A stretch of DNA of 64,000 nucleotides from Fibrobacter sp. (GTDB lineage Bacteria > Fibrobacterota > Fibrobacteria > Fibrobacterales > Fibrobacteraceae), in contig JAKSIL010000006.1 of NCBI GenBank assembly GCA_024398815.1, positions 1-64,000 of the forward strand. Direction: 5' to 3'. The notes under the pieces are model-generated. The model searched no databases. It saw only the letters and a program-made list of their open reading frames with translations, and was not told the DNA's origin. The translations under genes were made by a program, and so were the position numbers. Shown in pieces: positions 59,984 through 64,000 of the stretch; positions within the stretch are counted from its first letter, which is position 1, and every line of letters starts with the position of its first letter.

Positions 59984-60221
59984 TTAACACTCCTTTTATG
60001 TTTAACCCCTAAACGTTTCTAATTTAAATTGAAATGATGAAATTGTTGCCGAGGATGGAAGGCTCGCTGTTGATAAATAATCTATAACGAAAAGTTTACG
60101 AATCGATGGCGTGGGCGTCAAAGGCCTGGAATTGAAGCCTTCTGGAATCGCGATTTCCGCAAAAATTTTCGCATTTGTCTCTTATTGACATACGGATTTA
60201 TCTATATTCCATAGCAAATAA
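59984..60221. other. Upstream region of esterase and first ncRNA-like element
   Basis: AT-rich. TTGACA at 60185-60190 and TATATT at 60203-60208 lie just before the first element, but the spacer is only 12 bases. No open frame is convincing. Confidence 0.4.
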
Positions 60222-60461
60222 AGAGTTTTTGCTCTTGTTCTCCATCTGAAACTTCGACAATTTCCGCGACGAGAACGAGGCAGACGCTCACGTCTGCGAT
60301 AGGTTACCCTACCGCATCGTCCTGCTACATTGGTATTCTGTATATCGGTTTGCCTGTGCGCAGTGCGGCCTTTTGGGGGCGTGGGTTGTTTGCGTTTATC
60401 GTTGCAGGCAGTCGAAGGCCCCAGATGGGTAAGCGCATTCAATCCCTCCGCCCTTTTTTTT
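60222..60461 (+). ncRNA. Candidate structured RNA, copy A
   Basis: About 240 bases. It opens with a 44-base block (60223-60267: GAGTTTTTGCTCTTGTTCTC, then CATCTGAAACTTCGACAATT, TCCGC) shared with copy B at 60509. Next comes the hairpin GCAGAC-GCTCAC-GTCTGC. TACCCT and CTGTATATCGG follow, which copy B also has in near-identical form. TTACCC can pair with GGGTAA (60426-60431). Near the 3' end GGGCG and GGG (60377-60385) pair with CCC and CGCCC (60444-60453), followed by eight T residues, like an intrinsic terminator. No protein-like frame. Function unknown. Confidence 0.6.
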
Positions 60462-60508
60462 GTATCCAGAGCGCAGGAGAATGCTCAACAAGAGTAACGA
60501 TTCTTGGT

Positions 60509-60705
60509 GAGTTTTGCTCTTGTTCTCCGTCTGAAACTTCGACACTTTCCGCAACGCGAATAAGACATTGCTCGTAATGTCCCGTGCGCACACGGGCGTA
60601 TTGTACCCTGGGCGGACTGTATCCGGTAGGGTCGGCGAGTCGTGTTTTGATTTGTAGAATGTCTCGATTTTAGGCGAGGTGCAGCAGTGCTCCCCGCCTT
60701 TTTTT
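60509..60705 (+). ncRNA. Candidate structured RNA, copy B
   Basis: About 197 bases. It repeats the 44-base opening block of copy A with four differences. The hairpin after it is GACATT-GCTCGT-AATGTC: every stem pair is changed relative to copy A, but the loop start GCTC is kept. Then a second hairpin CCGTG-CGCA-CACGG, the ACCCT...AGGGT pairing, CTGTATCCGG, and a terminator-like stem GGCGAGG...CCCCGCC followed by seven T residues (60699-60705). The element ends 150 bases before the methyltransferase gene. No matching family comes to mind. Confidence 0.6.
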
Positions 60706-60855
60706 GTGCCGCCCGAAACCTGCGCAAAATGCCGTCGCGAAAATCGCTGACAGCGCCGCAGACTAATCCGTTCGCCGGAACCGCTCAAAAATCGCGCTCG
60801 GAACATCGCTCCCGAATGAGGGTGAACTCGTTCACTTTCAACTCGAGGAGCGAGT

Positions 60856-61902
60856 GTGACCGCAAAGAAGACTATAAAGGTCTTTGAAGGCTTTGCCGGA
60901 TATGGTGGAGCTTCTTTTGGCTTGAAAAGAGCTAAGGCCGCCTTAAAAAATTTTGATTACAAAGTCATTGGATATTCTGAGTTTGACAAATTTGCATCAA
61001 AACTTTTTGACGCAAATCATAAAGACGAACATGGAAATCCAATAAAAAATTGGGGCGATATAACAAAGATTGATCCGAATGAATTGCCTGATTTTGATTT
61101 TTTCATGGGTGGTTTTCCTTGTCAACCTTTTTCTTCTGCGGGTATGCAGCTTGGTACGGAAGACCCGTATGGTCGAGGAGCAATGCTTGGTCATATCATT
61201 CGAATTTGTCGAGTGAAAAAGCCGAAGTATCTGTTGCTTGAAAATGTGAAGGGTTTTACATCTGGGAAGTTCAAGCCAATTCACGATCAGTTGGTAAAGG
61301 ATTTGATTGAAATGGGGTATGGTACGACTCCGGAAAACACTTTAGCAAAAGCTGTTTTGAATTCTAAGGATTATGGTGTTCCGCAAAACAGAGAACGCTT
61401 GTGGATGTTTGCTCGTCTTGGTGGCTTGCCAGAAAATTTCAGCATGATTCCACCTACTATTGAAAGTTCTTTGAAAATGGGTGATTTTTTAGATTTTTCT
61501 CCAGACAAAACACTTTATTTGTCCGATGATCAAATTGCTCATTTAAAGGTGAAACACAATATTGATTCTTTTGTTGTGAAAACGCCTCTTTGTTTTGACG
61601 TGTACAATAAAAAAATTAAGACTGACGGTTACAGTATTACAATTACACAACCGGAACACAATAGTTTACGCGTTATTGAGCCGCCTAAAAAAATGGGAAA
61701 AAACAAAGGCAAAGAAATTGTTCGCAAAATGTCCGTTCATGAACAATTCCGTTTAATGGGCTTTGACATCTCAAGAGATTTAAAACATTGCGAAATCAAC
61801 TTTGATGGGCAATCCTATTCGCAGCTTTCTAAGAGAGCTGGCAACGGATGGGATGTCAACGTAGTTGGAATTCTTTTAACGCATATCTGGGGGCAATTAT
61901 GA
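60856..61902 (+). CDS. DNA (cytosine-5)-methyltransferase
   Basis: 348 residues, GTG start with GAGGAG five bases before it. Motifs in order: VFEGFAGYGGASFGL (motif I, SAM binding), GGFPCQPFSSAG (motif IV, nucleophile Cys89), LLLENVKGF (motif VI), VPQNRERLWMFA (motif VIII), and a C-terminal RAGNGWDVNVV (motif X). The target-recognition region between motifs VIII and IX is short, about 95 residues, which fits a type II enzyme. Its stop overlaps the start of the McrB-like gene (ATGA, 61899-61902). The gene is AT-rich (near 30-40 percent GC by eye) compared with its flanks, a sign of transfer. Role: protects host DNA from the partner nuclease. Confidence 0.93.
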   Translation: MTAKKTIKVFEGFAGYGGASFGLKRAKAALKNFDYKVIGYSEFDKFASKLFDANHKDEHGNPIKNWGDITKIDPNELPDFDFFMGGFPCQPFSSAGMQLGTEDPYGRGAMLGHIIRICRVKKPKYLLLENVKGFTSGKFKPIHDQLVKDLIEMGYGTTPENTLAKAVLNSKDYGVPQNRERLWMFARLGGLPENFSMIPPTIESSLKMGDFLDFSPDKTLYLSDDQIAHLKVKHNIDSFVVKTPLCFDVYNKKIKTDGYSITITQPEHNSLRVIEPPKKMGKNKGKEIVRKMSVHEQFRLMGFDISRDLKHCEINFDGQSYSQLSKRAGNGWDVNVVGILLTHIWGQL

Positions 61903-63602
61903 GATTAGATCAAGGGTCTCTCATTTTTAATCCGCTTAATGGGGAATGTCCCTCGTGGGAAACTGCTTTGGGACAGTCTCATGAAGGTAAAGGTGATTTA
62001 CCTCCGTATCACTTTAAAGCGGAAGGCTATGAAAATCTTCTAAAGGGAGTTTTTTTCAATGCTGTTCCTTTAAATACTGTTTCATGTATTCTTGGTAAAA
62101 CAAAAATTGCTGTAGACGCAGATACGTCGTCGCTTTACCCGAAAAATCAAGAAATTCAACTTGCGGGAAAATTTGATAAAGTTGTTGTGCACTTGGGGGG
62201 TGAAGAAAACAGTTTTTCTGATGCTCCTATAACATTATTGCTGACGAAGATTCAGGATCAAGAAAAATTTCATTACGGCAGACGGTCTATAAAATATTCG
62301 CCGCATACATCTGTTGGTGGAGTGAAAAATTCAACGTCTTTTGAACGGATCCAATCAAGATTTAGTATTCGACTAGCCTGCTATGGAATATTTGTAGAAC
62401 ATTTTGACACTCTTCATATGTATTGTGTTGATGCTGATGAATCCCATGATAAGAATGATTGGAAAGAACTCTCTTTACCAGAGACTGAGTGGACGGATTG
62501 GGCTGAATGGGAAAAGAATGAACGTGAAAAAAATGGTGATTTATTGGAAAATTCTGAAAATTCAATAAAATCAATTGAAAAATATTCTTTTACTCCTTCT
62601 CAAGTCATCTACTACGGTGTTCCTGGCAGTGGCAAGAGCAATAAAATCAAGGAATTGCTGAAAGATGTTCCGGATGAGCGGAAAGAACGTGTCGTGTTCC
62701 ATCCGGAATACACGAATGCGGATTTTGTAGGCCAGATTCTTCCGGTTGTTCATGATGGCGTTGATTACAAGTTCACTCCGGGTCCGTTCACGAAAATGGT
62801 TGCTAAGGCGTACAAGTCCTTTGCCAGTGAAAATCCGGAACAATTCTACCTTGTGATTGAAGAAATTAACCGCGGAAATGCTGCTGCGATTTTTGGCGAT
62901 GTGTTCCAGTTGCTCGATCGCATCAAACCGGGTGAAACAGATTCATCCCTCGGGAATGGTTCCGTTTATACTGAAGGGTGGAGTCAATACTTTGTTTACA
63001 ACGAAGACATCGACAGTAAGATTTTGGAACTTGCTGGAGTGTCTGAACTTGAAATGGGTTCTGTCAAATTTACGAAGGATTCTGGCATCCGTCTCCCGCC
63101 GAATCTTTCCATTCTCGCTACGATGAATACGAGCGACCAGAACGTCTTCACGCTCGACAACGCATTCCAGCGTCGCTTTGATATGGAACTTGTTCGCAAT
63201 GAATTCGAAAAAGGCGATGTCGATGGTTTCAAAGATGCCTCCGTCAAGGCTCAGCATAATGCTCTCATCGAAGGTACGGATTGCACTTGGGGCGACTTCT
63301 GGGAAAAGATGAACGGAAAAATCGTTTCTCTCAACCGAGGCCTCGCAAGTACCGAGGATAAACGACTCGGTCCGTGGTTCGTCTGCAGCATCGCTGGCGG
63401 TTCGGACGACGCCCCTCGCATAATTCCTGCAAAGGTTTTCGCTGAAAAGGTTCTCAAGTACCTTTGGGATGACGCGTTCAAGTTCAAGCGTCCGCAGGTT
63501 TTTGCCGATGGTCTTTCGAGCCTTGAACAGGTCGTGAAAAAATTCGAGGAAGCGTCGGGTGGCAATTTGGAAAAATTGAAGGCCATTTTCAAGGAATATT
63601 AG
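61899..63602 (+). CDS. McrB-like GTPase/AAA+ restriction subunit (LlaJI/BsuMI type)
   Basis: 567 residues from the ATG at 61899. Residues 1-230 form an N-terminal domain I do not recognise; its position fits a DNA-recognition domain. The AAA+ part has VIYYGVPGSGKSNKIKELL (Walker A, 240-247), FYLVIEEINRGNAAAIFGDV (Walker B) and ATMNTSDQNVFTLDNAFQRR, the M-N-T-x-D signature of McrB GTPases, with an arginine finger region after it. A McrC-type nuclease partner is expected next but is absent within the window. Base composition rises from about 40 percent to about 50 percent or more GC near 62600, at the start of the AAA+ domain. Confidence 0.85.
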   Translation: MRLDQGSLIFNPLNGECPSWETALGQSHEGKGDLPPYHFKAEGYENLLKGVFFNAVPLNTVSCILGKTKIAVDADTSSLYPKNQEIQLAGKFDKVVVHLGGEENSFSDAPITLLLTKIQDQEKFHYGRRSIKYSPHTSVGGVKNSTSFERIQSRFSIRLACYGIFVEHFDTLHMYCVDADESHDKNDWKELSLPETEWTDWAEWEKNEREKNGDLLENSENSIKSIEKYSFTPSQVIYYGVPGSGKSNKIKELLKDVPDERKERVVFHPEYTNADFVGQILPVVHDGVDYKFTPGPFTKMVAKAYKSFASENPEQFYLVIEEINRGNAAAIFGDVFQLLDRIKPGETDSSLGNGSVYTEGWSQYFVYNEDIDSKILELAGVSELEMGSVKFTKDSGIRLPPNLSILATMNTSDQNVFTLDNAFQRRFDMELVRNEFEKGDVDGFKDASVKAQHNALIEGTDCTWGDFWEKMNGKIVSLNRGLASTEDKRLGPWFVCSIAGGSDDAPRIIPAKVFAEKVLKYLWDDAFKFKRPQVFADGLSSLEQVVKKFEEASGGNLEKLKAIFKEY

Positions 63603-63707: not shown

Positions 63708-64000
63708 TTACGCATCTTTCAAAGCAAGGACTTCTGCTTCTGTAAGTTTAGAAGCTTGTGCAATTTCTGCAACAGAAAGTTTCCCAAGATCAAGCATTGC
63801 CTTCGCGATGACGTATTTGGCTTCTTGAAATCCTTCTGCCACGCCTTCTTTCCGACCTTCTTCCCGGCCTTCTCTTTTCCCTTGCAGGTAGGAGCCCTGC
63901 TTTTCGTAAAGCATGTCTGTCATGTTGTCTACCTCAAGAAGTAAAAGTTCATCGGTGTACCCTTTAAAATTTACATCTTTTGCGAAGTCTTTGTCAAGAA
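63708..64000 (-). CDS. Rpn-family PD-(D/E)XK nuclease, 5' end outside window
   Basis: The 97 C-terminal codons are present and the frame is open to the window edge. The sequence LDKDFAKDVNFKGYTDELLL then DNMTDMLYEKQGSYLQGKRE, GREEGRKEGVAEGFQEAKYV and LSVAEIAQASKLTEAEVLAL is the repetitive Gly/Glu/Lys-rich tail and C-terminal helix-turn-helix-like end of the Rpn/PDDEXK recombination-promoting nuclease family. The catalytic domain lies outside. Such proteins are common in mobile or variable chromosomal regions. Confidence 0.8.
   Translation of the reverse strand, partial: LDKDFAKDVNFKGYTDELLLLEVDNMTDMLYEKQGSYLQGKREGREEGRKEGVAEGFQEAKYVIAKAMLDLGKLSVAEIAQASKLTEAEVLALKDA

Follow-up and report, generated by a model that had tools for sequence, protein, structure and literature searches.

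Results

The locus

The window, the whole 64,000-nucleotide stretch of Fibrobacter DNA that was analysed, carries near its end a restriction-modification (R-M) operon preceded by a repeated element, both on the plus strand. The operon encodes a C5 cytosine DNA methyltransferase of 348 aa with a GTG start (60856..61902; PF00145, E 6e-53) and its restriction partner, an McrB-like AAA_5 protein of 584 aa (61848..63602; PF07728, E 3.3e-10; PADLOC REase_II, E 1.2e-67). Further along, at 63708-63998 on the minus strand, a fragment (MTDMLYEKQGSYLQGKREGREEGRKEG) resembles by eye the C-terminus of an Rpn/PD-(D/E)XK transposase-like protein.

An earlier note on this DNA described a repeated block upstream of the operon as the start of two tandem candidate structured RNAs. 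The block is indeed present twice (60227-60275 and 60512-60560; 49 bases, 91.8% identity, blastn E ~6e-15), and each copy ends, as described, in a GC-rich stem followed by a T run (T8 at 60454-60461, T7 at 60699-60705). The repeat is real but the two RNAs are not equals. They are alike only in their 5' part, the remainder being unrelated: in copy 1 the unit is complete, running from promoter-like boxes through a hairpin and a variable tip to an intrinsic terminator, while copy 2 is an extra 5' hairpin joined to an unrelated tail. The fold of the first (RNA1) beats 200 of 200 dinucleotide shuffles (z -4.1), and that of the second (RNA2) is weaker (z -2.6).

RNA1 spans about 242 nt from its putative start to the end of the terminator T run (60220..60461, delimited from a 31-copy alignment and the fold score), with a covariance model match at 60365-60460. 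Upstream are the promoter-like boxes TTGACA (60185-60190) and TATATT (60203-60208). Their 12-nt spacing is unusual for sigma70, and the alignment shows the TATATT-type box and the spacing kept among the class I copies described below; transcription would start near 60220. Four strands and two loops make up the unit. Strand 1 (CTCTTGTTCTC, 60232..60242), recognised from 1:2 pairing counts, is the 5' arm of the 5' hairpin, whose loop (60242..60271) contains K1a (CCATCTG, 60242-60248), K2a (CTTCGAC, 60252-60258) and K3a (CGCGACG, 60265-60271) and is complementary to 60400-60428. Strand 2 (60271..60295, from GAGAACGAG at 60271-60279 to CTCACG at 60287-60292) can pair either with strand 1 or, as an antiterminator, with strand 3. 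Strand 3 (GGGGGCGTGGGTTG TTTGCGTTTATC, 60375..60400), placed by alignments and pair counts, is in turn either the partner of strand 2 or the 5' arm of terminator 1. The terminator loop (60400..60428) holds K3b (CGTTGC, 60400-60405), K2b (GTCGAAG, 60411-60417) and K1b (CAGATGG, 60422-60428), as identified from native and swapped duplexes and pair counts. Strand 4 with its T run (GTAAGCGCATTCAATCCCTCCGCCC plus T8, 60429..60461), also supported by pair counts, is the 3' arm of this intrinsic terminator.

Block 2, the second copy of the 5' hairpin (60508..60569) and the start of the second RNA in the earlier note, coincides with a second match of the 5'-block model at 60511-60574. It is followed by the RNA2 tail (60570..60705), in which an alignment of 28 class I loci shows conserved TACCCTGGGCGNACTGTATCC. 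A second terminator-like stem closes the tail (60673-60705) in the window and is missing from some class I loci. Short repeats of the ATTGCGAACC...GGGTGAAGCAAT type are inserted at one site of the tail in several class I loci, for example L133, L113, L119 and L107. Neither the alignment of 28 class I loci for copy 2 nor the alignments read between the RNA1 terminator and the gene contain a conserved promoter-like sequence. Just before the GTG start, CGCTCC (60807-60812) and GGAGCG (60847-60852) form a possible pair that would sequester the Shine-Dalgarno (SD) sequence (60807..60852), a candidate suggested by the SD-arm counts below.

Distribution and classes

Judged by sequence comparison, the element belongs to a large, undescribed family of structured RNAs restricted to Fibrobacteraceae. 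Using 60200-60720 as query, blastn found it in all 37 same-genus genomes, the window's own included, and in none of 24 outside the genus. R1, a covariance model of the RNA1 3' domain, matched 60 of 61 genomes of the genus and, across the phylum Fibrobacterota, 89 of 168, with as many as 22 copies in a genome; its matches fall in only 4 of 41 genera, all of one family. Records that carry the RNA and have a name belong to Fibrobacter and Fibrobacteraceae, among them F. intestinalis ATCC 43854. In the genome of the window there are two tandem-type units, one in the window itself and one at C1:11781, and no fewer than two of the compact type (C24:495 and C80:1238).

As the earlier note had supposed, the element has no Rfam counterpart: no family scored above its curated gathering threshold for it in the whole window or at 17 other loci, and in 60000-60900 all matches at E up to 10 were far below threshold. 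A literature search turned up no description of this RNA from Fibrobacter, which is weak evidence, as subscription papers were thinly covered. Viral contigs were considered as carriers and rejected; there were nine exact 17-mer matches, only two of them with a marginal 19-22 bits, and we take these as chance. The RNA also appears on short MAG contigs labelled Bacilli, Lachnospiraceae and Bacteroidales (L155, L179, L196, L202 and L206; 67-92 bits), which are probably mis-binned Fibrobacter.

A 5'-block HMM divided 81 loci into class I (45 loci), with a second 5' block about 45 nt past the RNA1 terminator, and class II (36 loci), with RNA1 alone. Because loci were sampled from the best model matches, these two classes are over-represented relative to divergent copies. 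The compact class III has lower R1 scores and only a 4-5 nt tip between strands 2 and 3; it keeps the switch without the tip domain, and no conserved domain is left beyond it. The tips of class I are unlike those of class II, and both hold conserved stretches that look single-stranded, such as GCATCGTTTTGCTA and CAGTTTGCTGTA.

Two mutually exclusive folds

The covariance-model search and covariation test found homologues with compensatory pairing in Fibrobacterota genomes, and the idea of a functional structured RNA is borne out, in a different part of the molecule from that first proposed. The earlier note had taken a GCAGAC/GTCTGC-type hairpin with a replaced stem as the signature, but a stem of at least 5 bp occurs in only 11 of 43 class I and 0 of 36 class II copies. 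We therefore rejected it as a family feature, as the stem is not conserved across copies; the conserved pairing is that of the 5' hairpin loop with the terminator loop. Its two conserved motifs fared unevenly: TACCCT and CTGTAT..CGG are kept in the RNA2 tail but not in RNA1, where TACCCT sits in a variable loop. A GGCC/GGCC pseudoknot beside the terminator was likewise rejected as not conserved.

RNAalifold returned two incompatible consensus folds, and the choice between them depends on the scoring. Fold B has the 5' hairpin (strands 1:2) and the terminator (3:4); fold A is a long-range rod. The 5' hairpin loop is complementary to the terminator loop over its whole length, through K1, K2 and K3. 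Native loop duplexes have mean energies of -25.9, -24.4 and -36.8 kcal/mol in classes I, II and III, against -14.5, -12.0 and -16.9 kcal/mol with swapped partners; 0 of 10000 permutations reached the native pairing in each of the three classes, a comparison uncorrected for the kinship of the genomes. Across 28 aligned copies, 91.6% of cells are paired, compared with 39-49% when the partner is slid by 1-3 columns, and 103 double-change cells were observed against 39.9 after shuffling (0/500). K1 pairs in 98.7% of cells and shows double changes at five of its six pairs; K2 pairs in 95.9%. The figure for K3 is only 50%, which reflects gaps that misalign it; K3 pairs sequence by sequence when judged by eye. 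In the same 28 copies the 5' hairpin (1:2) is paired in 98.0% of cells, with double changes at two pairs, and the terminator helices in 92-100%.

The CTCACG:CGTGRG pairing between strands 2 and 3 is present in 28 of 28 copies with one-sided changes only; it is nearly invariant in classes I and II and so yields no covariation. Divergent copies are more informative. In nine of them, chosen by hand, both strand 2 and strand 4 track strand 3 (permutations 2/20000 for 2:3 and 7/20000 for 3:4), as in L298, where strands 2, 3 and 4 read CTCGCGC, GCGCGAG and CTCGCGC. An antiterminator mutually exclusive with the terminator and supported by covariation is what an attenuator should have, as is a terminator hairpin followed by a T run, seen in the alignments of the classes; the exclusivity of the loop-loop pairing rests on geometry. 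Since K1 and K3 directly abut strands 1-4, a full loop-loop helix should exclude coexistence with both hairpins, though partial loop-loop kissing may occur alongside a formed terminator.

In computation the RNA is bistable, the two folds being near-equal in stability. RNAs ending before strand 4 took the long-range fold in 77 of 81 cases, while full-length minimum free energy structures had the terminator in 49 of 81 and the long-range fold in 31 of 81.

Genes behind the leader

Gene starts were called with a simple ORF finder. Of 100 units, 96 share their strand with the next ORF downstream, at a median of 231 nt. This is the position of a 5' leader, as expected of an attenuator. The first genes of 44 class I loci comprise 26 C5 methyltransferases, six EcoRI-type N6A methyltransferases, five Tsp45I-type restriction endonucleases and two D12 methyltransferases; the exceptions include a hydrolase (L136) and a locus with no ORF past the filter (L108). 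Second genes include 16 AAA_5 McrB-like and six GmrSD/HNH proteins, as well as NgoPII, EcoRII, Eco47II and NgoBV restriction endonucleases. The tandem form thus heads R-M operons of many unrelated types, and the genes behind the element have no common pathway. Class III heads R-M systems of type I (L291, L293), type IIG (L278, L284), type III (L287, L288, L292) and C5 type (L294), plus genes of no assigned type. Class II mostly heads Fib_succ_major-domain lipoproteins, radical-SAM/SPASM proteins, TM2 proteins and others, with a JukA-like gene downstream at L289. By our reading of 10 genomes, a unit stands before about half of the C5 methyltransferase genes; the leader is thus frequent without being required.

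The leader stays while the cargo changes, since loci are homologous only as far as the end of the RNA or the start codon and the genes behind differ. Over 993 bases L008 and L009 are 92% identical, the match stopping no more than 10 bases from the methyltransferase start, and their methyltransferases differ; at the ffh locus (L085, L086, L088) homology stops at the RNA1 terminator and the cargo behind it differs. Conserved sequence extends past the terminator up to the start codon. In class I, 25 of 42 genes have an upstream arm that pairs over the SD sequence for at least 6 bp, against 1% of control genes; a recount of SD arms gave 17/32 for class I, 7/25 for class II and 1/70 for controls.

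Several neighbouring genes deserve mention in their own right. At L277, L285, L287 and L290, a conserved three-gene cassette (~224, 139 and 119 aa; a weak DUF4417 match in the first) is flanked by two leader RNAs spaced about 1.8 kb and precedes R-M genes; it could be an undescribed defence system. At L083 (G028:C4:34500-40500) the leader precedes a truncated EcoRI-type methyltransferase interrupted by opposite-strand genes resembling a diversity-generating retroelement (reverse transcriptase and accessory). An 805-aa protein starting MSLFERLQKASSEEDVK lies behind the leader at L283:5978-8392 and L300; it matches no Pfam family and has a marginal PADLOC methyltransferase match (E 0.0004). In the window's own genome, the compact copy on C80 is followed by this N-terminus as well. 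Near two leader loci are an Rfam abiF RNA (L105:730-766) and a DUF3800-XI RNA (L095:4110-4160), consistent with defence-rich surroundings.

Discussion

Covarying, mutually exclusive pairings, a terminator, a leader position, two folds of near-equal computed stability and an association with R-M genes come together in this element. We think it rather probable that it is a cis-acting, bistable transcription-attenuation leader, whatever its trigger. As one of two mutually exclusive folds contains a transcription stop signal, the leader is probably, as far as sequence can tell, an on/off switch of the bacterium's defence genes. Transcription would start near 60220. During synthesis the 5' hairpin loop and strand 2 would join the terminator loop and strand 3 in one long rod, blocking the terminator and letting RNA polymerase read through into the R-M operon. 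Alternatively, strands 1:2 and 3:4 would pair, the terminator would form and a small RNA some 240 nt long would be released. We infer from this that the rod is the ON state and that read-through is regulated. At R-M loci block 2, the tail, sometimes a second terminator and the SD-covering hairpin may add control after read-through, with block 2 perhaps a second target or a decoy for the terminator loop of RNA1.

The defence-associated regulatory role suggested earlier agrees with our finding that the leader precedes R-M operons genus-wide. The housekeeping role then held equally possible we judge unlikely, because the copies are scattered outside the genus, a single genome can hold up to 22 of them, and the cargo behind them has been swapped.

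A purely cis-acting RNA1 gives no reason for block 2 to stay complementary to the RNA1 terminator loop. In the window the block 2 loop forms a duplex of -25.2 kcal/mol with this loop, and across class I the native value is -24.8 against -14.8 swapped (0/10000). Block 2 as partner of its own downstream tail is ruled out by near-identical native and swapped energies (-16.9 and -17.4). A trans component is plausible because of this match, which holds despite K1 regions that differ between blocks 1 and 2 in 33 of 45 loci: RNA1 might also, or mainly, act in trans, the terminator loop of the terminated 240-nt RNA pairing with block 1 of new transcripts and with block 2. Through such pairing each locus would feed back negatively on itself and control for dosage, with, for instance, high expression when an R-M operon enters a naive cell. 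The hypervariability of K1 among paralogues also fits, but cross-pairing between paralogues of one genome is not depleted (permutation fraction at least 0.14 in all comparisons), there is no significant signal of selection for K1 orthogonality among them, and the match could also have arisen through concerted evolution of the two blocks. The 5'-block covariance model R2, run on 10 genomes, gave no convincing free-standing 5' block that could serve as a dedicated regulator. Ten R2 matches, most without a nearby above-threshold R1 match, proved to be divergent complete units except for one deleted (L297) and one degenerate (L304) copy, and we therefore rejected orphan 5' blocks as trans regulators. 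Apparent lone blocks being complete units or remnants, the two halves of the element travel together; in these 10 genomes we found no separate trans-acting complementary RNA of the ctRNA kind, only complete units, block 2 and deleted or degenerate copies. On balance we regard action of RNA1 in trans as unlikely.

A riboswitch, in which the tip between strands 2 and 3 senses a metabolite or protein and sets the balance, would account for the conserved single-stranded-looking stretches in the tips of classes I and II. We find it quite improbable, given that these tips differ, that class III keeps the switch with a tip of 4-5 nt and that the downstream genes share no pathway. Very unlikely, too, is an autonomous small RNA with targets of its own and the neighbouring gene as passenger. 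Promoter-like sequence and a strong terminator do bound a small transcript, but a same-strand gene follows in 96 of 100 cases, the tandem form is specific to R-M and conservation runs past the terminator to the start codon. Finally, a DNA-level site for cassette exchange or recombination, its inverted repeats folding as single-stranded DNA as in integron attC, would suit the exchange of many types of cargo at sharp homology boundaries, but is extremely unlikely given T runs straight after the terminator stem, an upstream promoter-like box, SD-covering hairpins, a strand 4 kept complementary to strand 3 on top of the inverted repeat, and a single unit before each gene in place of a flanking pair (one per locus at 80 non-window loci, with no integrase noticed in the ORF lists of the units read).

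The cis-acting attenuation leader can be extended to a broader picture, which we offer as doubtful: a lineage-wide RNA switch may bring much of the acquired defence (type I, II, IIG and III R-M, JukA-like and other cargo) into a shared on/off regulon, which new defence genes would enter by gaining or retaining the leader, while RNA1 would in addition act in trans on block 2 and so set the timing of R-M establishment. The known means by which bacteria silence, time or induce R-M and other defence genes that are expensive to carry are for the most part proteins, each dedicated to a single system. In Fibrobacter, a genus with an important part in cellulose breakdown in the rumen, R-M systems that otherwise have no common traits share a single architecture of RNA leader. 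A leader common to unrelated R-M systems and kept through cargo exchange allows the idea that a whole defence repertoire is controlled at the RNA level to be put to the test. It also supplies a covariation-supported, putatively bistable RNA for structural study and a handle on R-M barriers in Fibrobacter genetics.

Several known systems resemble parts of this arrangement. Rfam abiF and DUF3800 RNAs are also structured RNAs beside defence genes, but the Fibrobacter RNA has no match to their models and differs in size and fold. In trp/pheST-type attenuator leaders, 1:2 and 3:4 (terminator) pairing and 2:3 (antiterminator) pairing are mutually exclusive. The Fibrobacter element has the same four-strand exclusive pairing in a 5' leader, but its hairpin loops are hypervariable and complementary throughout, no leader peptide is evident, it sits before unrelated defence genes and a second 5' hairpin lies downstream. 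Complementary hypervariable loops and switching between terminator and antiterminator are features of pT181-type ctRNA attenuation, which the Fibrobacter leader shares; here, however, both complementary partners are on one transcript, and no trans partner was found in 10 genomes. Antisense RNA controls the EcoRI and Eco29kI R-M systems through reverse promoters inside one R-M system (PMC3874152); this too is RNA-based R-M control, whereas the Fibrobacter leader is on the sense strand and common to many unrelated R-M types. A further parallel is RptR, a repressor of diverse R-M systems in defence islands (PMC12255303). As with RptR, one regulator family stands over diverse R-M systems, but RptR is a protein and the Fibrobacter element an RNA leader.
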